Shown here in pieces: positions 15,665-63,120 of a stretch of 64,000 bases of DNA. The position numbers and the translations under genes were made by a program. The notes beneath the pieces were generated by a model. It worked only from the letters and a program-made list of their open reading frames with translations. It had not been told where the DNA came from and ran no database searches. Source of the DNA: Mugil cephalus (lineage: Eukaryota > Chordata > Actinopteri > Mugiliformes > Mugilidae); assembly GCF_022458985.1 (NCBI RefSeq), contig NC_061789.1:7296357-7360356 (forward strand), written 5' to 3'. Positions within the stretch are counted from its first letter, which is position 1. The number at the start of each line of letters is the position of its first letter.

Positions 15665-18600
15665 ATGGAGCCGACCTTTTCTTGTTTCATCCTCTTCACC
15701 CTGACTGGCTTCGTCACGAGCTCCTCTTTCGATGACCGCTACCGCCGCAATGGCACGGGCCGCCACGACTACTGCGTGCTCGGAGCCGGACCTGCCGGGC
15801 TACAGATGGGATACTTCCTCTCCAAGGCCAAGAGAGACTACATCATCCTGGAGAGGAACTCGGGACCTGGGAGCTTCTTCAACAAGTAAGGAAACGCATG
15901 TTGAGACTTTGCCATGTGGTGCAGTAGTGGGGAACTTTCGGACGGCGGGAACTTTTTAAGTAGTTCCTGTTAGAGTGTTATGTGAACGGCGTAGCTTACG
16001 GCGGAGGTCTCTCTACTCTGTTTTGTCCGTCCCAAAGGTATCCCAGGCACAGGAAGCTCATCAGCATCAACAAGATCTACACCGGACGGCGGAACCGGGA
16101 GTTCAACCTCCGCCACGACTGGAACTCGCTGCTGAGCGACAAACCCGACCTCTTGTTCAGGAGGGTGAGCAGCGAGTTTTACCCTCCGGCCGACGCCTTC
16201 CCTCTGTACCTGTCCATGTTTGTGAAGGAGCTCGGGTTGAGGGTCCGGTACGGGGTGGACGTCGGGAGGATCAGAGCCGTGCAGTCGGCCTCCGGAAGGA
16301 GCTACGTCCTGACTGACCAGCACGCGTCGGACTACACCTGCGGGTATTTGGTGTCACGCCGAACCTCACATGGAAATACTGCGTTTAGATGGGGGATTTC
16401 ATTGTGTTTCTGTTTTCCCCTCAGCGTCCTCCTGGTAGCCACGGGTTTGTGGGTTCCTCAGGAGGTCGAGTTTGTCGGTTCCGATTTGGTCGAAGGCTAC
16501 GAGTCCATCTCCACTAACCCCGAGGACTACAAAGACCAGGCTGTGCTAATTCTGGGAAAGGGGAACTCTGCTTTTGAAACGGCCCAGAGCATCTTGGGAC
16601 GAGCGAGTCGGGTGCACATGCTCAGTTCCAGCCCCGTTCGACTGGCGTGGCAAACGCATTACGTCGGAGATCTCAGGTAACGTAAGGATGCTTTAAAAGA
16701 TAACAACCAAAAAAGGTGTGTCAAGCAGGTATTTTAAACAAAACCAACTCATCGTTTTTGTTTTCCAGAGCCGTTAATAATGAGCTCATAGACACGTATC
16801 AGCTGAAGTCCCTCGACGGGCTGGTGGAGGCGCGCCTGGAGAAAATAGCTATCGCTCGCCGAAAGGAGGAAGGCCGGAGGAGACCGGGTGGAAAGAAGAA
16901 AGAAGAGAAGGGACGGTTGTATCTGACTTTAAACAAGTACGTACAAAGCAAAGAGGAGACGAATAGTTCGGAAGTGACGGGAGAAGAACTGCCAGGGCAT
17001 CACATTGACAATTTCCCGATGCGAAAACCGTACGACCGAGTGATTCGATGTCTCGGCTTCCGATTCAACTTCAGCATATTCGAAGGGTATGGATTCACTT
17101 GTTAGTCCTCGTAACAAAGCTGTTTCGTCTATGTGATGTACGATAGATAATGAAAAAAAAATAAAATAAAACTCTCCTCAGCGCCTCCTGCCCACCGAAC
17201 AGTGAGAACGCAAAAGGGAGGTTGCCGGGGGTGACGGCCTGGTATGAAGGGAAGGAGACGCCCGGGTTGTTTGTGCTGGGAACCGCAGCTCACTCCAGAG
17301 ACTACCGCTCGTCTGCCGGCGGCTTCGTCCACGGATTCCGTTACACAGGTAGGAGACTTGGCGGAGAAGGTCCCAAGCCTTCGTCTGGTCGTATATTTAG
17401 GTCTCTGATTCTACGATCGGCTGTGAGTTTTCTACCGCTAATGCACGGACTTTCTACCTCAGTACGAGCTGTACACCGCGTGCTGGAGCACCGTTACCAC
17501 AACAACCCGTGGCCGTCGACAAAAGTGGCGACGACGCATTTGCAGTCCTGGATCCTGAAGCGTCTCGGCGAGGCCTCCGGGCCGTACCAGATGTTTGAGA
17601 TGCTCGGGGACGTTATTCTTCTTCGAGGGTAAGTTTGTAGGGTTGGGTGTTGCTCCTCATCATTTCATGTAGTCAGTTTTACTTGAAACTAAACACTGTT
17701 TTCAGGGATTTGTGGTGTTTGCACAATATTTTGCCTCTCGTTTCACACCGTGCATATGACTTTTGTGCAGCTCCTGTTCTCTGAAGTGTGGTGTATTATG
17801 TACAACAGATAGTGGCCCCCGGCTTAAAGTAACTGGACAAGATTAGAAGAAAAACAGGTTCTAGTCACGTAAAAAAGATATCAGTTGAAATATTATCACC
17901 ATTTGGTGTCAGGCGGCTTTTAATTAGGGGAACTGACACCATTATATTGCTCTTTTAAAGTCACCAGAGTCCATTCATAAAAACAGTAATTTTACACCAC
18001 AGAGGACGTGAGATGCTGATTTGATCACACACCATCGTCAGGCTGTCAGTCCCTGTTCAAATTACTCAACCTGACATTTTTTCAATATTTTTTTTTTTCA
18101 GTTATTAATTTGTTTGTCCGCTCCTCTCTTCTTGACCCGAAGCTCTTACTGCGAGTACCTGGAAGAGTTCCCCATCCAGGCCTTGCCCCAGTTCTCCTCT
18201 CTAACCGGCCGAGAGGTCTCCAGCCACGGCCTGATAGTTGTGGTCATGCAGTACGGGAAGGAGAAGATAGACTACCTGGGGCGTAACAGGGCGGAAACAG
18301 ACTGGACTAAAGCTTGGAAATCCAACTTCCTACACCCTGTTTTATACTTCTACGACACGCTTCCTTCTGGTGAGTGGAGATTCTGCCACATGTACCGATC
18401 ACAACGTTAGTGTACTTTTTTTTTTTTTTCCAGGTGAAGTAATTTTCGTTTTTCTTGCAGATGAAGAAATGAAGCGTCGCCCCCACAGCTGGACTTTACC
18501 GAGACCCAAGGCTATTCATCACATCGTCGAGGATTTCCTCACAGAATGGGAGAGTCCCGTGTCGCACATCCAGCCTCTGCGGCGCTTCCTGGAGCACTGT

Positions 18601-19537
18601 GTCCAGACCGACCTCAGAGCCTTCTATGCAGGTAAAGCTGACAGTTAATCTGTATGAAATATACAATATTAAGTGAGCACCTCCCTTCACCGATGTTTCG
18701 TTAAGTTAGGCCCGCGACGCCTCAAGAAGGCTAGTTTCACCCCCATCCATGCTGCGCGTAATATTCAATTAGGGTGGGAGGAGTGGGATGGGGATACAGA
18801 CCCTAATTCGGGTCGGACATTTTTGTAAGTATGCTAGTGTAGCCAAGTTAGCTAATTTTCAGCCGCAGTCTCTGGGGCAGATGATATGAGCACTACTACT
18901 GCTGGTACTAGTACTCACAATACATTACAATACAATACATTCAGGGACGGCTGGTATAAAGAGGCTAACAGGGCTAAGCCGTCCCAAGCTAACACAAAAA
19001 AAGATGAGAAAATAATTTTTTAAATAACTTGCAGTGGATTGTTTTAAGTTTTGGTGAAACCAAGGGTAGCAACAGCATCAAAAAGTCAAAAGAAAAACGT
19101 AGAATGTAGAGAAAGTGATTGATGATGATAATTATAATGGTAATTGATGTAACTGAGTATATTGTAGGTGATGTTCCCTTTGCTGCTGTGTTAACTATTT
19201 AATCGGTAGCCCACTCACCAAATCTCACAGTCTCAATTTCGAGTGGCACTCCTGCGGCTGCACCCACCCGCTCAATGTCTGCCTTTCTCATCCCGTCCCT
19301 TTAGAATCATGTTTCCGCTCATCTCTCACCCACCGCAAGCCGCCGCTGTTCTGCCAGCAGGGATACCTGAGGCGGCAGGGGGTCGCCCACCACGCTCGGC
19401 CGTCGCAGCACGTTCATAAGCCTGGGCCGATGCCGGCCGATCAGGACGCGGGCACATCGGGGGCCGACGCAGCGTTTCCCAACTACCTGGCACCAGCTGG
19501 AGCCTCCGTGTCTTCGGGACTGAAACTTGACTTCTGA
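15665..19537 (+). CDS. foxred2: FAD-dependent oxidoreductase domain-containing protein 2 (ERFAD)
   Basis: Nine coding exons: 15665-15885, 16038-16343, 16425-16676, 16769-17086, 17182-17348, 17463-17628, 18143-18369, 18461-18631, 19305-19537. They give 686 aa, against about 684 in human. FOXRED2 is a flavoprotein of the ER lumen that works with SEL1L/OS9 in ER-associated degradation. The N terminus [20 protein letters not shown] is a signal peptide. The FAD-binding GAGPAG is at about 40-45 and the second nucleotide motif GKGNSA at about 220-225. [16 protein letters not shown] and [13 protein letters not shown] are strongly conserved blocks. An N-glycosylation sequon (NGT) is at 29-31. The coding start follows an acceptor AG at 15660-15661. 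Oddities: a Lys/Arg-rich stretch at about 290-309 inside the oxidoreductase domain, and an end reading GLKLDF in place of the human KEEL-type ER-retrieval tail. Introns 17629-18142 and 18632-19304 hold no gene I can see. Confidence 0.97.
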
Positions 19538-20779
19538 TTGTTTCATCAGCTGTTTAAGTCCCTCCGAACTGCTACCTCCTGCACGCATTGGTACTCCCTC
19601 TGCCAGACAGAAGTATTTGCACAGACTACCATCCTACATATCAGTGGCTCCCATCCTGTTTATGGCCTGTGCGACTGTTTCAACCAAAGACTGATTTCCC
19701 TTTCTTTATTTGGACCACGTCTAAGTGTCACAAAAGAAGTACAATTATTCTGTGATTTACCAGAAGAGAGTCTGGAACTATGAGCTTAAAGTGGCAATCT
19801 TGAATATTTCATTTCTGGTTGATTTAGCGACACCTGCAGTCATAAAAACTGATTTTCTGGCAAAAAAAAAGTGATGAAATAACCAACGAATGATAGCGTT
19901 GCGTGCTAAGCTCACTGACAGACATGCTGAATTCACTACTTATCTTTTTGCCAGTAAATCAAATTTGAGTACAAAGCTGCAGAATTAGCCATTAGCAGTC
20001 CATAAACTGAGATTATTCTAGCAGTGACGTAATGCAGCAATGTTACCGAAAACGTCTCCATAACCAGTGCAATACTTTAATCTCTGGGCTGTCACCTCTG
20101 TCACCATTGATTTACCTCATGGATAGAGACTTTACCGAGATATGTATTCCTTTACTTAAAGGAATATGATATTCCTTTAAGTGAAAATCTTCAAGGTGGC
20201 CACTTTAACTTTCCTCTTCTGTCCTCTGACCCTCCCTCCGACTGATCCTGTGACTTCTTGGGATCCAAACCCACACTGGAGACGATCTTGTTCTTTAAAA
20301 GCACCTATATCGATGTTTTTCTTCACAAATATACATTAAACTATTTTCATATCATAGAAAGCTGTATTATTTAAGGGTGTGTAAAGAGGTGGAGGGTGGC
20401 TGTCATTGCAGATTATTATGCATTTTATATGATGTTAAATGATTAAACATAAACTAGTGACGGAATATACGCTTTGTTTTTTTGTGTTTTTAATTTCATC
20501 TTATTTTAACAAGTACAATTTTGATTTAAACAACAACGACATGCATTTTCGAACAATATGTGACACCTCTCTGAAAAATAAAATCACTATTGAGCTTTTT
20601 CCACCAGAGAAAGAAAAAATATCCAGTAATAAACTTAAATAAAATAAATTAAATAAATAAAAACATTTATAATTATTGAGGAACTATGTATCTTATGCAT
20701 ATTATAAGTGATCAATTCGATAATTAACCACATTTTTATATGGTGTTAGCTGATTAAACATACCTCAGTGTTAGAATAC
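19538..20779 (+). other. foxred2 3' UTR and AT-rich intergenic DNA with a perfect palindrome
   Basis: No coding region supported. A perfect inverted repeat lies at 20154-20182: arms ACTTAAAGGAATAT and its exact complement around a single G. The distal part from 20340 is AT-rich, with several AATAAA-like words, so the foxred2 poly(A) site cannot be chosen with confidence. Confidence 0.5.
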
Positions 20780-20992
20780 AAGCATTGTTGTGTAGTTGAA
20801 GGCTCTAATCTGGCCCGCAGCATAAATTTGCTTTTTTGCACTTTTTGCAAAGTGCAAAAGAAATTACACAGAAGTCGGCATTTTTTTTTATTATTTATTT
20901 ATTTATTTATTGAAGGATATAGGTTATTATGTTGTTATCTTACTGGTTTGGAGATCAGATTGGGCTGAACTAAAATAAACTTGGCACCCTTG
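20780..20992 (-). repeat. hAT-like element fragment
   Basis: The right end CTAAAATAAACTTGGCACCC at about 20969-20988, with TTATCTTACTGGTTTGG upstream, matches the fragment at 12940-13030. The left part has TCTAATCTGGCCCGCAG. Non-coding. Confidence 0.5.
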
Positions 20993-21127
20993 GCCTCTTT
21001 GTTGCGCGGTGTCATCATGACATGAGGACATGATAACGTATTTTGAAACAAGCTGTAAGGGCTGAAATCAAAGACTTTCAGTGAGTAAATATTTAAACCA
21101 TAGGGGGTACTGCAGGGGGGATAATCT

Positions 21128-21176
21128 CTCATCAATTTGGGGATCCTTGGCCTGAAAAACCTTCAAGAACCCTGGT
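21128..21176 (-). repeat. Terminal fragment of a second hAT-like family
   Basis: On the minus strand it reads CAGGGTTCTTGAAGGTTTTT followed by CAGGCCAAGGATCCCC. This matches the left end of the copy at 53386 (CAGGGAGTCTTTAACGTTTT, then CAGGCCAAGG). Confidence 0.5.
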
Positions 21177-21239
21177 TTAAAGGAACGTTTTTCCTTTACA
21201 CCTTTAAAGGACTTTTTTCGGATTAAGATTTTCACAAAG

Positions 21240-21673
21240 CGCATACCCGGAACTATCAGTCTCAATCTGATTGGCTGCTTGCTTGCGTTGATCCTATTGG
21301 ACGGCAGCAAATTAACAACACGGACTCTGATTGGTCGCCACCGCTCCGAGGCTGTCGACTGCACAATGGGTGTGCCTCTTACTACTAGTATCCGATGAAG
21401 TGGAAAATGTGACATAGGGGACATTTTGAAGGAAGGTATTCACTGTTTTCATAGTTATTATCATCCGGGACAGGTGTAGCTTAGTGAGGGGAGTTGCTGC
21501 GTTGCTGCGCCGTGCAATGGCCCCAGGTGCAGCTGAGGGTAAACAAGCCGTGTTCAAAGTTGACTCCACATCTTACTGACGGAGCCTGCGCTTCCCTCAG
21601 GCTCTGAGCAAGGAGTTGCAATAACCGTATGCAACGAGCGCAAACCATCGCTTCCCCCATGTCACGGTGAAGT
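21240..21673 (+). promoter_or_regulatory. ankrd54 promoter and 5' UTR: three inverted CCAAT boxes
   Basis: ATTGG (inverted CCAAT, NF-Y type) occurs at 21270-21274, 21296-21300 and 21330-21334, spaced 26 and 34 bp. No TATA box is apparent. The row of CCAAT boxes sits 340-400 bp before the ATG, so the transcription start probably lies around 21380-21480. This is inferred from motif layout only. Confidence 0.5.
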
Positions 21674-25231
<3,558 letters not shown>

Positions 25232-25899
25232 AGGATAAAGTGTATGGACTGATCCTTTTTCCTTTCTGTCTTTCTTTTTTTTTTTTTTAAGCAAGCCTCT
25301 GCTTTGCGTCACTGGTCTCGGTCAAGACAAACAAAGGCCGAACAGTGATGGCGGGGTTCGTCTGCCCCAAACACAGTGTTCAGCCAAAGTACTGCATTGT
25401 AACCAAGATAAGACTGTGTTTTTTTTGGCTAACATTTAACGGCTGCAGTACTACAGTAGAGAATAAAAGGGAGTGTCACGAGTTGGATTATATGAAGCTT
25501 AAAAAAACAGTGAGAACAGGAAGCTAGACGCTAATTCAGAGGTGCAGCGGGACCATAAATCTTTAACATGACTTTGAGAAAGATTAGACAAGCTCTAAGA
25601 TAATTGTGTTGATTTAACAGTTTTGTGTTTTTTGTGGTCTTACCAACAGCTATGTTGTATCGTTGCCTTTTTTGTTGTAACGCATGTTATTACGTGAATT
25701 GTACTGTAAAAAAAAACAAAATAATTGATATATGTGAATGAATAAATCGATATCTTTGTGTATATTCGTGTGTTTTTTGTCTTTTATAAAGTGTGAGTAT
25801 GTATTTGGCCATATTTATTTGAAATACAGGCATAATATTAAATGAGAGTTGGTTGTAGTTGACATTTCGGATGATGGCAGACTAACATGGCCACTTGTG
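25232..25899 (+). other. ankrd54 3' UTR
   Basis: No frame of interest. AATAAA words at about 25463 and near 25740 could serve ankrd54. The following hmgxb4 promoter begins only about 150 bp beyond the last of them, so the two genes are packed head to tail. Confidence 0.55.
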
Positions 25900-25904
25900 C
25901 GCTA

Positions 25905-26012
25905 CGCTGATTGGCTGCGTAACCTAAGCCCCGCCCCGACGCAGACACGTATTGTTGTCTCGCCGAAAATAAAGATGGCTGCCGGACCCGCGTAAATTGG
26001 GGATCCCGTAGA
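25905..26012 (+). promoter_or_regulatory. hmgxb4 promoter: inverted CCAAT, GC box and YY1-like site
   Basis: ATTGG is at 25910-25914, a GC box CCCCGCCCCG at about 25929-25938, and AAGATGGCTGCC, a YY1-type initiator motif, at 25972-25983. A plausible non-coding exon ends at a GTAGTA donor near 26012. This TATA-less layout is that of a housekeeping gene. The YY1 motif contains an ATG that opens a 6-codon frame ending in TAA at 25992-25994, translatable only if transcription starts upstream of it. Confidence 0.55.
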
Positions 26013-26668
26013 GGTAGTAATATTTAATAAATTCACTCTTCCTCACATCCCAGTGTTTGTAAACTGCACACGATATCACTGTAGACGAGATTAAGGCAGG
26101 GGAGAAACTGAACGAAGGCCGTGCGTGGTGTGTGGTCCGCTACAGGCGCCCGCGGCCTAGCTTTTAGGGAAAGCCTCGGACTTTCCTTGGCCTCTCTCAC
26201 CGGTCAGCTGAGGCCGCACTCGGCGGTAGGGATTGTAGTCTTGGAGATGTTGGGAAGCTCGAGTGTCAAAGTGAATAGAGAGGGGGTGTGTTTGTGTATC
26301 TTTTACAAAAGTAGGCGGGAATTTGTTTAGGTATCATTTTGGTTCCCTTTTTGAAGACGATAGACCGCAATACACTACAAATATAGCGCAAGTGGTATTT
26401 TTCCTCAAGTAGCGGGCAATCGTGGAGGACTAAACCCATGGCCACTGCTTCCTGCAGGGTTCAATGTGGGAGCAAGGAGAGACAGTTTATAGAAAGCCAT
26501 GATGTGTTAGGATGAATAAGTAACAGAACTGCCAAGGTTGACCCACTGTATGTTTTGCTTCTACCTTAAACTGCACTAATCTATTTTGTTGCGGGTCAGA
26601 ATTTGTATTATTTCTGCAACAGCTTGATTTTCATTCATTTATTTTTTTGCCCTGTTCATCAGGTCAGT

Positions 26669-26710
26669 ATGATGCCTGAATTGTTGTCTGCTACATCCCA
26701 TAACAAGTGA
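26669..26710 (+). promoter_or_regulatory. Short upstream ORF in the hmgxb4 leader
   Basis: ATGATG at 26669-26674 opens a 13-residue frame, MMPELLSATSHNK, stopping at TGA 26708-26710. It ends 22 bases before the main start at 26733. It lies in the exon after an acceptor AG at 26661-26662. Such uORFs often lower translation of the main frame; use here is untested. Confidence 0.5.
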
Positions 26711-26732
26711 AAGCTCTGACCCAGGAGGAACC

Positions 26733-29700
26733 ATGGCTTTCGAGGAGATCAAGGGTAAAGGAGGCATCGGTAATGCACACTTGCAGTTTTTCCATCTCTC
26801 TGTTCATTATTCATTCATTCGTATTTTTTAACGCTTCACCTGTGGCGTCTAAATCACATCATATGTTGTTTGTTGACTTCTTTTCTGTCTCATTTTGCAC
26901 CTGCCAAACACAGACGCTGCACTGGCCACTTTACGCAACACGTCTGTTATCTGCCTTAGTTTATACATTTATATTATGTTATATTCTAGTTTAGTGTTTA
27001 ACTTGTTTCAAATACGATAATAAAGCTTAGGCCTAGACTTTGAACTGTGTTCTTACTGTATAGTTTTATTTAGTATGCGACACAGAACATGTTCAGACTG
27101 AATCAGTGACGTGATTGAAAATGACGCCTCGTTTAGAAACAAGTCGGAGAAAAAAAAAAATGCAATTTTTGAATGATTTACCTGAAAAGATGAAAAGTCC
27201 CAAAAGTATTCATGGGTAGTCACTGTTACCTAACAAAATAATAAATGAATAAACTAAATTGTTGACTACACATGGGCTTTATGTGTTTCTGATTGGCACG
27301 TGTTTAAGTAGCCAAAGCTTCATGTTGATGTGAATTACAAGATTTTCTCAACATTGACCTTTGTCTTTATTATCTTTTATGATAGAAGTGAGATCACTGT
27401 GTGTCGTTCAGTTTATAATCTGAGGTTTGTTCAGGCTAATAACATAAGTAACATCAAGAGAGGAGACTCAGAAATAAATAATAACATATGCTTTCAGTTA
27501 TTCGACTAATAGTCCGCTAAATGAACTAAATAGTCTTGAGAGACGTGTTAATAAAAGGGTTTCACGGTTAGTTTGTGCAGGAAAAAGAGGAACTCTCTCA
27601 TCCTTCAGACGTGGGAAAACCCATATTACCGGCTACGTTGCTTATGTTATGAAGAGAATCAAAGTGTTTACTGGCAACGGTGGAAAAGTAATATAAGGTG
27701 GATTTCGTGTACTTTAGACGTGGGGATGGAGAGTGAGAGGGGCCTCGTGGCCGGACGTAGCCAGAGAGAGAAGAGGAGGTCGTACAAGGATCTGTTGAGG
27801 GAGGAGGAGGAGATTGCCGCACAGGTGCGAAAGTCTTCCAAGAAACGTCCAAAGGTGAGTTTATCCGTCTTTGTCTTCCTGGTCCAGTATCGCGAAAGCA
27901 TGTTTAACCCTTTGAGACCTAGACATCTGCCCACGGACAAAAAAAAAAAAAAAAATGTATTTGAGTTGCCGTAGCTGAAAACTGGGAAGGTGGAGGAATT
28001 TTTTGGAAAAATTAAGTTAGTTTAACCTTTGAGGTGTCATAAAGGTCTTCAAGACAAAAGCACAACTTCCCAGTGTTCAGTAGTTTTGTCAATAGAACAA
28101 ACCATTGTGAGTTACAGTAACTTTAACGGATCGTCTGCAATGTGTTTGGTTTTGAGGGGTTCCTTTCCCAACACTAACAAAAATCAATCTTGTGCGTATT
28201 CTTGACGTATTTCCCGAAAAACTATTTTAAAATTTTGATGACTCATCCTGCACTCAGGGGCGTGTACTAATTAAATGTTTTAGGCGCTCTCTTAAATCTT
28301 CATTTACCGTCTTTCCTACGTCTGTCAAGCGTGTATGTGATGGTCATGCTGGTGTGTATGTGATGTCGTGGCTCGACCGGCTGTTTCTCTGGGACTTTAA
28401 AATGTGCTGTTAATCCTCGTTTCAATGTAATTAATTAAATCAATTTCAAAATCAGGATTCGGAGCTCTTCATGCTCGGAGGAGACTCGCACAAAAAGAAG
28501 AAAAAGCATAGCGATGACTACTACTACAGAGGTGAGAGAAGATGTGCAGCCACCTGCCAAAACATTAAGTACACTAACAGAGAATGAATCCTGATATAAC
28601 CTTGTATCCTTGATCCTCAGACCACGACGGCCCCCCTCCCCACAAGAAGAAGCACAAGTCCACAGACCGCTCGCCGACTCTTTCCTCGCCCTCCTCGTCC
28701 CACCCGACGGACACGGCGATGGGGCTCCTCCAGGCCATCACGTCTCCTCTGGCCACGGGCTCGGACCCGAGCCCCCACCTACACAAGAAACCCTCCTACC
28801 CCTCGCTCTCCTCGCACTCGTCCAAGGACCGCAAGCGCGACAGCAGCGGGAGCAAGAGCAGCCACTCCTTCTCCCACTCCCGGCCCGCGTCTTCCTCCTC
28901 GTCCTCCTCCAAGAAGCACTCGTCGTCCTCCTCGAAGTCGTCCCTCTTCCACGGCGGAGCCCCCAAGGAGGAGCCCCTGACGCTGCGCGAGGCCGACGGG
29001 CTGAAGATGAAGCTCATCATGTCGCCGGAGAAGGAGGAAGGCGAGAGCTTCCCGTTCACGCCGCACTCCTCCAAAGGAGGCGGGAAGAAGGAGAAGGACA
29101 GGGAGCGGACGCAGCTTTCGAAGTCGCCGAAGAAGAAGATGCAGCAGAGCAGAGACCCGCTGCCCGTGGTGGGGAAAGAGGTGGAGGTGGAAGGTAAGAA
29201 GGCGCTAAACGTCGCTCGTCTGACAGTGAAATAAACCCGTTAATAGTCGTTATGAATCGGTCGTCACTCTCTGCTCCGTCCTGCAGGTCATTATGGAGGA
29301 GGCCTGGGAGATGAAAGCTCTTCTTCTGGGGGAGAACTGGAGGCGGGTGAACTGGTCATAGACGACTCGTATACACATCTGTCGAAGAAGAAGAAGAAGA
29401 GCAAGAAGAGCAAAAAGAAGAAGGACAAAGAAAAGGACAGAGACAAGGAAAAGAGCGGGAAGGACAAGAAGCACAGCAAAGGATTTGGAGGTGAGTTCAG
29501 CCCTGATGCAGTCGGTTATGTTGATGCTGTGAAGCCAAAAAGATTTGACGGAAGTTTTAAAAAAAAATTAATTTAAAAAAAAATAAATAAATTAAGGCTC
29601 GACGGTATGAAAAATGTATATTTAATATTTTGTATATTTAATCATATATTCACAACATTTTCTACTGGTTGAGAGAAGAATTAATGCAGTAGAATGATTA

Positions 29701-35645: not shown

Positions 35646-36325
35646 ATGTCCGCATCTGCTTCGCAGTCAGGTATGTGGTTGCATACAGTTGCAGTTTGTA
35701 TTATTATTATTTTTTTTTTACATGCGCCGTTTCAGATCCGTATCGGCGAGACTAGTGGGGGTGCGTCTTGCGCGTTATCGTAATTTTTGCGGGTTTGTGA
35801 TGCGAAGCTGCTGTGATGCGATGCAAAGGGCGCTGCCACTTCTCAGAAATGTTTCAACGATTCCACGTAAACCGCGAAGACAAAGGCACATTCTGTTTAC
35901 TATAGAAATACTCGGACCGTAAAATAAGTACATAGCATCTCTAATGAAATGCGTGCGGATAATGTAAGTTTATTGTGATAAAAGCCACTGGTTGTCATTT
36001 TTGGATATTGTTATTGTTTTTTAAAAAGTGCATTCATTGTGTTTCATGTGTTCCTGCTGATCAGAGCTGAGGCTCGTGGTGCTGGGGCGCACCGGAGCAG
36101 GAAAGAGATCCGCAGTCAGCGCCATCCTGAACCTACAAGACCCGGATCAGGGCGCGGATGCTTCTGGTGTCCGGGAGTGCAGCAAACTCATCGGGGAGGC
36201 TGCAGGCAGACAGGTACCGAGAGGAGAAGGTTTACATAGATTTAAGCACCCGTGTTCACAGCATTGTAACAGCTGCTGTCTGTAATGAGTCTGCGCAGCT
36301 ATTTTAGAACCGCAAACGGATGTTT

Positions 36326-36381
<56 letters not shown>

Positions 36382-38033
36382 ATGACTTGGGGATATGACC
36401 TATATTTAAGAACAAACTGGGAAGTATCTCTGACTTATTGTGTTATTATTCTAAGTAGAATTATTCTTTATTTAGTTATTATAGTTATAGTGTCTATCCT
36501 GTTGTTAGCTGTTTATATATATATTTTTTTTTGTTTTTGTTTTTTTAGTTATTAATAACTTGTAGCAGATCAGAAACATTCAGCTCTAAAGATTACAAAC
36601 ATTCAGCTCAACGGATCAGAAACATTCAGCTCTAAAGATCGGAAACATTTAGTGTCACAGATCAGAAACATTCAGCTTCACAGATCAGAAACATTCAGCT
36701 CTAAAGATCAGAAACATTCAGCTGTAAAGCTCAGAAACATTCAGCTTCACAGATCAGAAACATTCAGCTCTAAAGATTAGAAACATTCAGCTCTAAAGTT
36801 CAGAAACATTTAGTGTCACAGATCAGAAACATTCAGCTTCACAGATCAGAAACATTCAACTCTAAATATTAGAAACATTCAGCTCTAAAGATCAGAAACA
36901 TTCAGCTGTAAAGATCAGAAACATTCAGCTTCACAGATCAGAAACATTCAGCTCTAAAGATCGGAAACATTTAGTGTCATAGATCAGAAATATTCAGCTC
37001 TAAAGATCGGAAACATTCAGCTTCACAGATCACAAACATTCATCTCTAATTATCAGAAACATTCAGCTCGAAGCATCAGAAACATTCAGCTCTAAAGATA
37101 AAAAACATTCAGCTCCACAGATCACAGTAAGTGTTTAATTGTGACGCTTCTGCCACTTCTCTGCAGGTGGTGTTAGTCTCTAGTCCTGCCTGGTTCGGCT
37201 CAGCCTGCAACCCAGAGGAAAGGAGAAAACACATCTCCTCCTTCATCGCCTTATCCAGCCCCGGACCACACGCCTTCCTGCTGTGTGTCCCTCTGAACCA
37301 GCCGGCCGATGGAGAATTCAAGGCTCTGGACGCCCTCGAGAAGCTGTTTGGCCAATCCGTCACCAGAAACACCATCATACTCTTCACCCACACGGAGGAG
37401 CTGGGGGAGGACGAGCAGCTGGAGGAATACCTCGTCACGTGGCGCAAGGACCTCCGGCAGCTGGTGGAAAGATGCGGCGATCGCTACCACACTCTGGAAA
37501 CCCGCGACGGGGAAGAGGCGGAGAGGAAAGCTGTGGAAGAGCTGCTGGAGAAGGTCGAGGAGGTGACGACGGAGAGCGGCACGCAGCACTTCAGCTGTCC
37601 TCTCTACGAGGAGGCTGAGGAGAGGGTGAGGGGGAGGCAGGCGGAGATAGCGAAGCAGAGGAGAGGAGCGGAGGAAACGAATGACCGGGAATCACCAACA
37701 GACTCGCAACCGGAGGAAAACGTGACAGAAGAGGAAATGGAAGCGGCCCGGGACGAGGCGGAGAGGAGCATCGGCGATCTGAACGTGGACGTGGATGATA
37801 TTTTCCCTCCCGCCTGCGTCTCGCCTTCTTCAACCTCTCCGTCTTTTCTCTGGGGCCTGTGGGAGAAACTCACCGGCTGGATCAAGTGGCTTCCCACTCT
37901 GGTGAGACGAGAGGCCCTGCTGGGAGCCTTGGTGGGCCTCTTTGTGGGGGGGCCCGCCGGAGGTATGGTGGGGGCCACCGTGGGGTCCGTGGCCACTGAA
38001 GTGGGCAGAAGAAAAACTCAGAAAACTAAATGA
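35646..38033 (+). CDS. GIMAP/AIG1-family protein with degenerate GTPase motifs (probable pseudo-GTPase)
   Basis: Three coding exons, 35646-35670, 36065-36213 and 37167-38033, give an intact 346-aa frame. The fold-level match to the immune-associated AIG1/GIMAP GTPases is clear: ELRLVVLGRTGAGK at the N terminus, RECSKLIGEAAGRQ, the conserved box PGPHAFLLCVPLNQP after G3, ILFTHTEEL at G4, and RYHTLE near G5. The key residues are changed. The P-loop reads GRTGAGKR, with Arg23 where Ser/Thr binds magnesium. The switch I Thr aligns with Val44. G3 reads SSPAW (residues 63-67) in place of DTPGx, losing the Asp and Gly. An acidic coiled-coil-like region (about 180-260) precedes a Gly-rich hydrophobic C terminus (about 308-336: LLGALVGLFVGGPAGGMVG), a likely membrane insertion. 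GIMAPs usually coat organelle membranes in lymphoid cells. Here nucleotide binding or hydrolysis is doubtful. AATAAA is near 38199-38204. Confidence 0.85.
36329..36380. repeat. (GT)n microsatellite in the GIMAP-like gene intron
   Basis: About 26 uninterrupted GT dinucleotides, 115 bp after exon 2. Likely polymorphic in length. Confidence 0.95.
36565..37127 (+). repeat. 23-bp minisatellite, about 24 units, in the GIMAP-like gene intron
   Basis: The unit is about AGATCAGAAACATTCAGCTC followed by TAA or a CACA-type variant, period 23 bp. Two main variants alternate, one with CAGCTCTAAAGATC and one with CAGCTTCACAGATC. The array ends about 40 bp before the acceptor of exon 3 (37167). It is non-coding and well conserved between units, so relatively young. 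Confidence 0.9.
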
Positions 38034-61657: not shown

Positions 61658-62626
61658 CTATTCGTTGTTGGTGCTGATGTGTTTGACCGGGTCGCCGCTG
61701 CCTCGCTGTAGTTTCTGATACTCCTGGTGTAAACTGAGGAAGTGCGGGGACGCGGCCGGGTGAAAGAGAGCGGGGGACGCGTAGGCAGCGCTGGAGGTCA
61801 GGGGAGAGGAGTACGCGGCGGCGCACTGGGCCGCGGAGAACGCGTCCATGCCGGGCTGCGACTGGAGGAAAGCCTTGGCTGTGAGGGCGCCGCGGGAGAA
61901 GAAGCTGGAGAGAGCCGGCAGGATGCTGCTGACAGGTGGGATGGCTGCGGGGCCGCACGGCGACGGCGTGTGGTGATGGAGGTAGGGGTAAATCTCCAGG
62001 CTGGGCAGCTGCAGGGCGGCCGCGCCGAGCCCGTACGTGCCGTGCGGGAAGCCGTGCAGTCCGCTGGGCTCCAGGTGCTGCTCCTTGAGCGGGTCGAAGC
62101 GAAAATGCTGCCGCTTGAAGCGCTTCCTCCGCCGCAGGAAGCTCCCGTTCTCAAACATGTCGGAAGAGTTGGGATCTAGCGTCCAGTAGTTGCCCTTCCC
62201 CGGGTTTCCGGGCTCCCTGGGCATCTTTACAAAACAGTCATTAAGAGACAGATTGTGCCTGATGGAGTTCTGCCAGGCGGGGAACTTCTCCCTGTAGTAA
62301 GCGAAGCGGTGGCTGATAAAGTCGCATATCTCGCTGAGGGTGAGGCGTTTCTTTGGACTCTGCAGTATGGCCATCGTTATCAGCGCGATGTAAGAGTACG
62401 GAGGCTTCACAGATGCGGGACCTTTGGTTTTGGGAGTCGGGGGACACGCCGGCGCGGGGCTGTAGGCGTCCCGCTCTTTTCTCTGGCCGCCGTGAGTCTC
62501 CGCGCCGCGGTCCAGCTCGCTGCGAGACACGTCCAAAGGTAGGAGCTGCTCCTCTCCACTGTCTCTGAGTCCTTCCCCCACCACGTCGATAACAATATCC
62601 TCCATGATTTCCAAACCTAATGTCAT
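61658..62626 (-). CDS. FoxD-class forkhead transcription factor
   Basis: A single exon of 322 aa, intronless like other FoxD genes. The start [19 protein letters not shown] matches the acidic N-terminal IDVVGE motif of FoxD proteins. The forkhead domain spans about 73-171: [47 protein letters not shown] and [11 protein letters not shown] are all intact, so DNA binding should be retained. Compared with FoxD1/2/3 it has [10 protein letters not shown] for LTLSGICEFI, HRFAYY for the usual FPYY and KMPREP for KIPREP. The C terminus is Ala/Pro/Ser-rich and lacks a clear eh1 (FSIENII-like) Groucho-binding motif. FoxD factors act in neural crest, mesoderm and kidney development. Which paralogue this is (a foxd5- or foxd7-like fish gene is possible) I cannot decide without a tree. 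Confidence 0.9.
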
Positions 62627-63120
62627 AGTAGAAGTCCGCGAGTAAAGCCAACACCACCTGGCAACAGGTGGGAGAGTGACAGCCCTTCTCTCAGACGTGA
62701 TGAAAAGATATTTACGCGCGACCCATATCCATCCACAAAAGAGAGAAAGCGAGAGAGAGAGAGAGAAAAAAAATCCCAGCGCAGTCCAGCTCCAACTTCT
62801 CTAAGATCAGAGTCTCCAAACCGCAAAGCATCCGCGCTGATATCCTTTATTTCGGTGTCTTTGAGCGCACGGAGCGGCGATTGTGCGTAAAAGTGCGTGC
62901 GTCCTCGGAGATGTCCAGCATCATCTGTAATCTGTGTTGCTTCCCCGTGGGTCGGGTGGATGTGATGTCACGCAGAGGCACGAGGAAAAGGGATCCTGAC
63001 CAATGAAAACGGCGCAAACGGTGCCATACCAAGGAGGCCTATAGGCTCCCCGGCACCCGGCGCACCTTCATCATAATCATCATCAGCATCATCATCATCA
63101 TCATCATCGGGGCATCAGCG
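62627..63120 (-). promoter_or_regulatory. 5' flank of the FoxD gene with paired E-boxes
   Basis: Immediately upstream of the start, 62654-62671 holds CCACCTG-GCAA-CAGGTGG, a perfect inverted pair of CAGGTG/CACCTG E-boxes of the type bound by Snail and ZEB factors. An inverted or direct CCAAT (GACCAATGAA) is at about 62998-63007. An ATC triplet run lies at 63067-63108. The transcription start is not determined. Confidence 0.45.
63067..63108. repeat. (ATC)n trinucleotide repeat
   Basis: About 14 ATC/ATA-type triplets with a few interruptions, about 450 bp upstream of the FoxD start. Confidence 0.85.

Follow-up and report, generated by a model that had tools for sequence, protein, structure and literature searches.

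A three-exon GIMAP gene on chromosome 20

The window is a stretch of 64,000 nucleotides of Mugil cephalus chromosome 20 (contig NC_061789.1, positions 7,296,357 to 7,360,356, forward strand). It contains a GIMAP gene of three exons on the plus strand. The exon borders are GT/AG, and reading of the joined exons gives a stop-free frame of 346 amino acids, with an A at position -3 of the start codon (Table 1). Exon 2 is bounded by a phase-1 border before residue 9 and a phase-0 border after residue 58, both identical in position and phase to those of the closest relative, a gene on chromosome 2 hereafter named the sister gene.

Table 1 Positions of the features discussed, numbered from the first nucleotide of the window; the sister gene is given in chromosome 2 (C2) coordinates.
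Feature	Position	Strand	Remarks
Exon 1	35646..35670	+	Start codon (ATG), residues 1-8 and one base; CAG/GTATGT donor
Exon 2	36065..36213	+	Rest of residue 9 to residue 58; P-loop, switch I region
Exon 3	37167..38033	+	Residues 59-346 and stop; G3, conserved box, G4, G5 region, C-terminal extension, membrane segment
G1/P-loop GRTGAGKR, residues 16-23	36085..36108	+	Arg23 (AGA, 36106-36108) where Ser/Thr is expected
G3 position SSPA, residues 63-66	37179..37190	+	Replaces DTPG/DTPD
AIG1 conserved box core SPGPHAFLL, residues 89-97	37257..37283	+	Kept, from the alignment
G4 segment FTHTEEL, residues 131-137	37383..37403	+	Glu is a family variant
Hydrophobic Gly-rich C-terminal segment, residues 308-326	37914..37970	+	Counterpart segment in the sister gene
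Forkhead gene	61658..62797	-	Synteny marker; Pfam Forkhead, E=4.6e-39
Sister gene (C2A)	C2: exon 2 1336414-1336259, exon 3 from 1336082	-	Found by genome search

Pfam AIG1 covers residues 10-213 of the predicted protein with 128.7 bits (curated cut-off 27; E=2.6e-37). The other ten Pfam families listed for the protein stay under their cut-offs; they include glycine-zipper models placed on the C-terminal segment. Hence, the intact frame with an AIG1 layout described in the earlier note stands. In a phmmer search, the nearest solved chains are those of GIMAP4, 7 and 2, followed by 5 and 1; the match to GIMAP4 (3lxx) has E=3.6e-28, and seven further GIMAP chains of known structure were matched as well, all of which we take to be human. 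A GTPase fold is predicted for the protein by this homology. The C-terminal hydrophobic segment has a mean Kyte-Doolittle value of 1.78 over 19 residues, and such a segment is also present in membrane GIMAPs. In addition, a scan of viral contigs for relatives of the protein gave 8 pattern matches, none of which is a relative.

An alternative exon carrying a normal P-loop was considered and rejected. An N-terminal AIG1 model built from 68 sequences was run against 2109 six-frame segments of the window and matched exon 2 only (E=9.7e-7), with nothing else better than E=1.1. Intron 2 contains a 23-bp minisatellite of about 24 copies (AGATCAGAAACATTCAGCTCTAA) that spans 558 bases (36567-37124), as well as a TG run at 36328-36380.

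The gene has further neighbours in the window. Upstream, the interval 15964-29231 contains matches to Pfam DUF4171 and Pyr_redox_3, which we take to be HMGXB4-like and FOXRED2-like neighbours, respectively; in human, FOXRED2 and HMGXB4 are found on either side of the APOL region of chromosome 22. Some 24 kb downstream of the GIMAP gene is a forkhead gene in convergent orientation.

GTPase motifs of the predicted protein

The motifs were read from an alignment of the window protein with human GIMAP2, 4 and 7 and with 109 AIG1 domains from the same genome. The protein lacks the Ser/Thr following the P-loop Lys, the switch-I Thr and the G3 Asp. Neither the GxxxxGK[S/T] pattern of G1 nor the DxPG pattern of G3 is present. 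The G1 Ser/Thr and the G3 Asp are Mg-contacting positions. On the other hand, the P-loop glycines and Lys are retained. The P-loop ending in GKR and the replacement of DTPG by SSPA, both reported in the earlier note, are thus confirmed. In the sister gene, the G3 codons are GAT ACC CCT GAC, as compared to TCT AGT CCT GCC in the window gene; since five bases differ across three codons, the G3 change is not a single base-calling slip. In the switch I region (ASGVREC), a Val is aligned to the Thr position and adjoins a two-residue gap, so that the absence of Thr or Ser at this position is firmer than the exact substitution of Thr by Val that had been claimed.

The fourth alteration proposed at the outset, in G4, does not hold as a loss, although its letters were read correctly. 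Glu occupies the G4 Asp position in human GIMAP2 (FTHKEDL) and GIMAP7 (FTRKEEL) as well. It is also found in the canonical domains of this genome, defined as those, among the 109 domains read, in which the P-loop Lys, the Ser/Thr after it and the G3 Asp are all present: these 64 domains carry Asp (58), Glu (4), Asn (1) or Gln (1). Because GIMAP2 binds GTP, GIMAP7 has GTPase activity and four canonical domains share this residue, Glu in G4 was rejected as a sign of inactivity. The Thr preceding it in the window protein is unusual. The statement that G1 to G4 are all altered was therefore too broad, and applies to G1, switch I and G3.

The remainder of the domain resembles human GIMAP4, GIMAP7 and GIMAP2 (Pfam PF04548), with which it has in common the AIG1 domain, the conserved box, where SPGPHAFLL aligns with SPGPHALLL of GIMAP4, and the G5 region (GDRYHTLET). 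The family residues and the Gly-rich membrane segment are kept, as had been noted. Apart from the three positions above, the window protein also differs from these human proteins by the absence of the Arg of LGRYT, a site that reads VPLNQPA in the window protein and VPLDQPA in the sister. This Arg is Gln in both copies, including the canonical sister, and its absence is thus no mark of the loss in the window copy. As the protein belongs to the family by descent in the tree described below, whereas its G1 and G3 deviate from the canonical patterns, we file it as a diverged GIMAP member and not as a canonical GTPase. It falls under pseudoGTPases in the sense of one or more G motifs lost, those concerned being G1, G3 and the switch-I Thr.

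The sister gene and degenerate AIG1 domains across the genome

When the 634.8 Mb genome (24 contigs) was searched with the window protein, the closest relative was the sister gene on chromosome 2, with 188 bits, the next match scoring 116. The two are 49.8% identical over 213 aligned AIG1 codons and have in common a hydrophobic membrane segment and an EVGRR end. The sister keeps GKS, the switch-I Thr and DTPD. It differs from the window gene by a long, amphipathic-looking repeat tract (SSVWGKVGSGAK...) that precedes the membrane segment in exon 3 (L009 3506-5083, minus strand); to us, this tract is reminiscent of lipid-droplet-binding repeats. Beside the sister lies a further AIG1 gene in several pieces, C2B (L009 6508-7727, minus strand), in which GKT is kept and EAPR replaces DTPG.

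A tree was built from 60 of 115 sequences of this genome and human, with the chromosome 1 and 8 sequences thinned and those shorter than 150 residues left out. It pairs the window gene and its sister with support 100/99, the bootstrap being not fully settled. The end branches measure 0.83 for the window gene and 0.37 for the sister. Relative-rate tests on the domain leaned towards faster change of the window copy with all ten outgroups tried, but were nominally significant (p<0.05) for only four of them. As both the sister and the family at large have canonical motifs, the motif loss is most simply placed on the branch of the window gene.

The dN/dS comparison suggested in the earlier note was run on this pair over the 213 AIG1 codons, and gave a dN of 0.43-0.44 and a dS of 1.5 (LWL85) or 2.8 (NG86). 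Differences at first, second and third codon positions amount to 0.36, 0.34 and 0.57. The dN/dS of the pair is well below 1, and with dS near saturation it shows no more than that. In the extreme case where the window branch carries all dN (0.44) but no more than half of the LWL85 dS, a ratio of about 0.6 results.

A genome search with the window forkhead gene as query gave C2:1301893 as the best match outside its own locus. This second forkhead gene lies about 32 kb from the sister and has the same convergent orientation relative to it. Of the three neighbours tested, the forkhead gene is the one shared by both GIMAP loci, the HMGXB4-like and FOXRED2-like exons having matched only themselves; the latter result could be explained if one of the duplicates was later lost, but gives the duplication no support. 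A teleost whole-genome duplication took place about 300 million years ago, and the forkhead-GIMAP pair on two chromosomes looks like what would be expected of a segment derived from it. Because the duplication looks old, the window gene should exist in other teleosts. The lineage specificity raised in the earlier note would thus not apply to the duplication, but may still apply to the motif loss.

To place the window gene among the AIG1 domains of this genome, 111 of the 152 matches reported were taken, of which 109 were readable; the window gene, the sister gene and C2B bring the set to 112. Outside the 109 are partial matches and some full-length ones, on chromosomes 19, 20, 7, 9, 12, 8 and 1 and in part of the chromosome 16 cluster. 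Within the set read, at least one of three residues (the P-loop Lys, the Ser/Thr after it, the G3 Asp) is missing from 47 of 112 domains; degeneracy as such is therefore common among the AIG1 domains of this genome. In 9 of the 112, the G3 Asp and the Ser/Thr next to the Lys position are both gone. Within this set, a canonical domain lies at most 5 kb away on the same strand for 34 of the 47 degenerate domains, and three of the 47 are megabases from any other, namely C16:16636349, C20:21461239 and the window gene, whose next AIG1 match is 2.9 Mb off. The isolated chromosome 16 domain has GPPGGGRTSL in G1 and DTPD in G3, and that at C20:21461239 has GSSGPSQFML and NGPN.

On chromosome 8, AIG1 clusters at about 0.50-0.61, 1.09-1.18 and 1.47-1.49 Mb include several GIMAP8-like frames with two or three domains. 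Degenerate types recur there near canonical domains (ERS or KT in G1; NTPD, ELPA or KTPD in G3). One 683-residue frame has three AIG1 matches with the G3 segments KTPD, ELPA and DTPG, and resembles the layout of GIMAP8, a protein with three GTPase domains (PMC8201404). Like the window gene, these GIMAP8-like genes have domains that lack G1 and G3 residues with the box largely kept. However, their degenerate domains are mostly a few kb from canonical ones, some in the same open frame, whereas the window gene stands alone.

A candidate pseudo-GTPase and its possible partners

In the window protein, residues that contact Mg and the GTP phosphates are lost, while they are kept in the sister, and the frame, family signature and tail are intact; the protein therefore probably works without GTP. 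We find it rather probable that the gene encodes a membrane-anchored GIMAP turned pseudo-GTPase, which would act as a nucleotide-independent partner of canonical GIMAPs. The three lost residues, the canonical sister and the low dN/dS of the pair support the pseudo-GTPase with a maintained frame put forward in the earlier note.

Beyond the lost residues, we infer a course of events from the sequence. With Arg23 present and the G3 Asp missing, the protein would be unable to bind Mg-GTP, or at the least to hydrolyze it, and would therefore not cycle. It could then reside as a nucleotide-independent subunit on an internal membrane and pair with canonical GIMAPs via the GIMAP G-domain surface. Such pairing might cap or restrain the GTP-dependent oligomers of canonical GIMAPs, or give them a fixed platform. 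A scaffold or GTPase-regulating role appears plausible on these grounds. More tentatively, one of the two copies of a membrane GIMAP left by the teleost genome duplication may have become a dedicated, stand-alone pseudo-GTPase regulating canonical GIMAPs in trans, as GIMAP8-like degenerate domains may do within one chain.

Relations of this kind are known. The IRGs, for instance, include the IRGM (GMS) regulators, GTPase-fold proteins whose G motifs are altered and which work by pairing or scaffolding with active relatives or partners. Within the GIMAPs, GIMAP2 has a high affinity for GTP and dimerizes upon binding it, and scaffolds have been proposed; GIMAP2 and GIMAP5 alone bind GTP and do not hydrolyze it, whereas GIMAP7 stimulates its own GTPase activity and promotes hydrolysis by GIMAP2 (PMC8201404). 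The nearest worked-out parallel is provided by the septin pseudoGTPases, in which altered G motifs go with pairing with relatives, although that case is built on experiments and ours on sequence alone. Some septins are without GTPase activity, or by prediction without nucleotide binding, yet take part in hetero-oligomers, and these losses coincide with changes at the hetero-oligomer interface (PMC10731463). Non-binding pseudoGTPases are established in p190RhoGAP pG1/pG2 and CENP-M (PMC5593906, PMC10211241). These have GTPase folds with altered G motifs and act via partners, but belong to other families and are experimentally based.

PseudoGTPases are divided into those that have lost nucleotide binding (class i) and those that have lost hydrolysis (class ii) (PMC5593906). 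A class ii protein, catalytically dead and still binding GDP or GTP through the P-loop Lys and G4, perhaps without Mg, is the most serious alternative, to which we assign a minor share of the probability. Weak GDP or GTP binding is possible because the P-loop Lys and an acceptable G4 are kept; the P-loop glycines are kept too, G4 has the THxE of GTP-binding human GIMAP2, and GTP-bound septin pseudoGTPases are known (PMC10731463). Against this, the G1 Ser/Thr, the G3 Asp and the switch-I Thr are gone together, and an Arg beside the P-loop Lys should leave little room at the Mg/beta-phosphate site.

It is unlikely that the window gene is a decaying copy, recently released from selection and on its way to a pseudogene. 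Its longer branch (0.83 versus 0.37 for the sister) and the clustering of the losses on catalytic residues point in that direction. However, the gene has 346 codons without a stop, frameshift or broken splice site, it retains the conserved box, GDRYH and the membrane segment, and the dN/dS of the pair is low, with an extreme-case ratio of only about 0.6. A release too recent to have left visible marks is possible. Finally, an assembly or model error hiding a canonical P-loop exon or canonical bases is very improbable: the gene model is computational and intron 2 contains the 558-base minisatellite, but no other N-terminal AIG1 exon was found in the window, the changes affect several codons across two exons, and the exon borders agree with those of the sister.

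Overall, the reading of the window gene as a pseudo-GTPase partner of canonical GIMAPs credibly makes it a new GIMAP variant with a testable prediction, and no new type of system. No description of a GIMAP pseudo-GTPase was found in the open-access literature searched; in a snail survey, AIG genes missing a conserved motif are labelled 'partial' (PMC7053062). GIMAPs, a family of immune GTPases, form one short cluster in mammals and number over a hundred genes in zebrafish (PMC7053062, PMC9245644); in teleost lineages the count reaches nearly 190 at most (PMC9245644). Since the two duplicates differ in catalytic residues and have the same exon layout and membrane tail, they offer a natural experiment on whether GIMAP function needs nucleotide cycling. 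More generally, AIG1 domains of the degenerate kind belong regularly to the GIMAP repertoire of this fish, which the blanket label 'GTPase' would hide.
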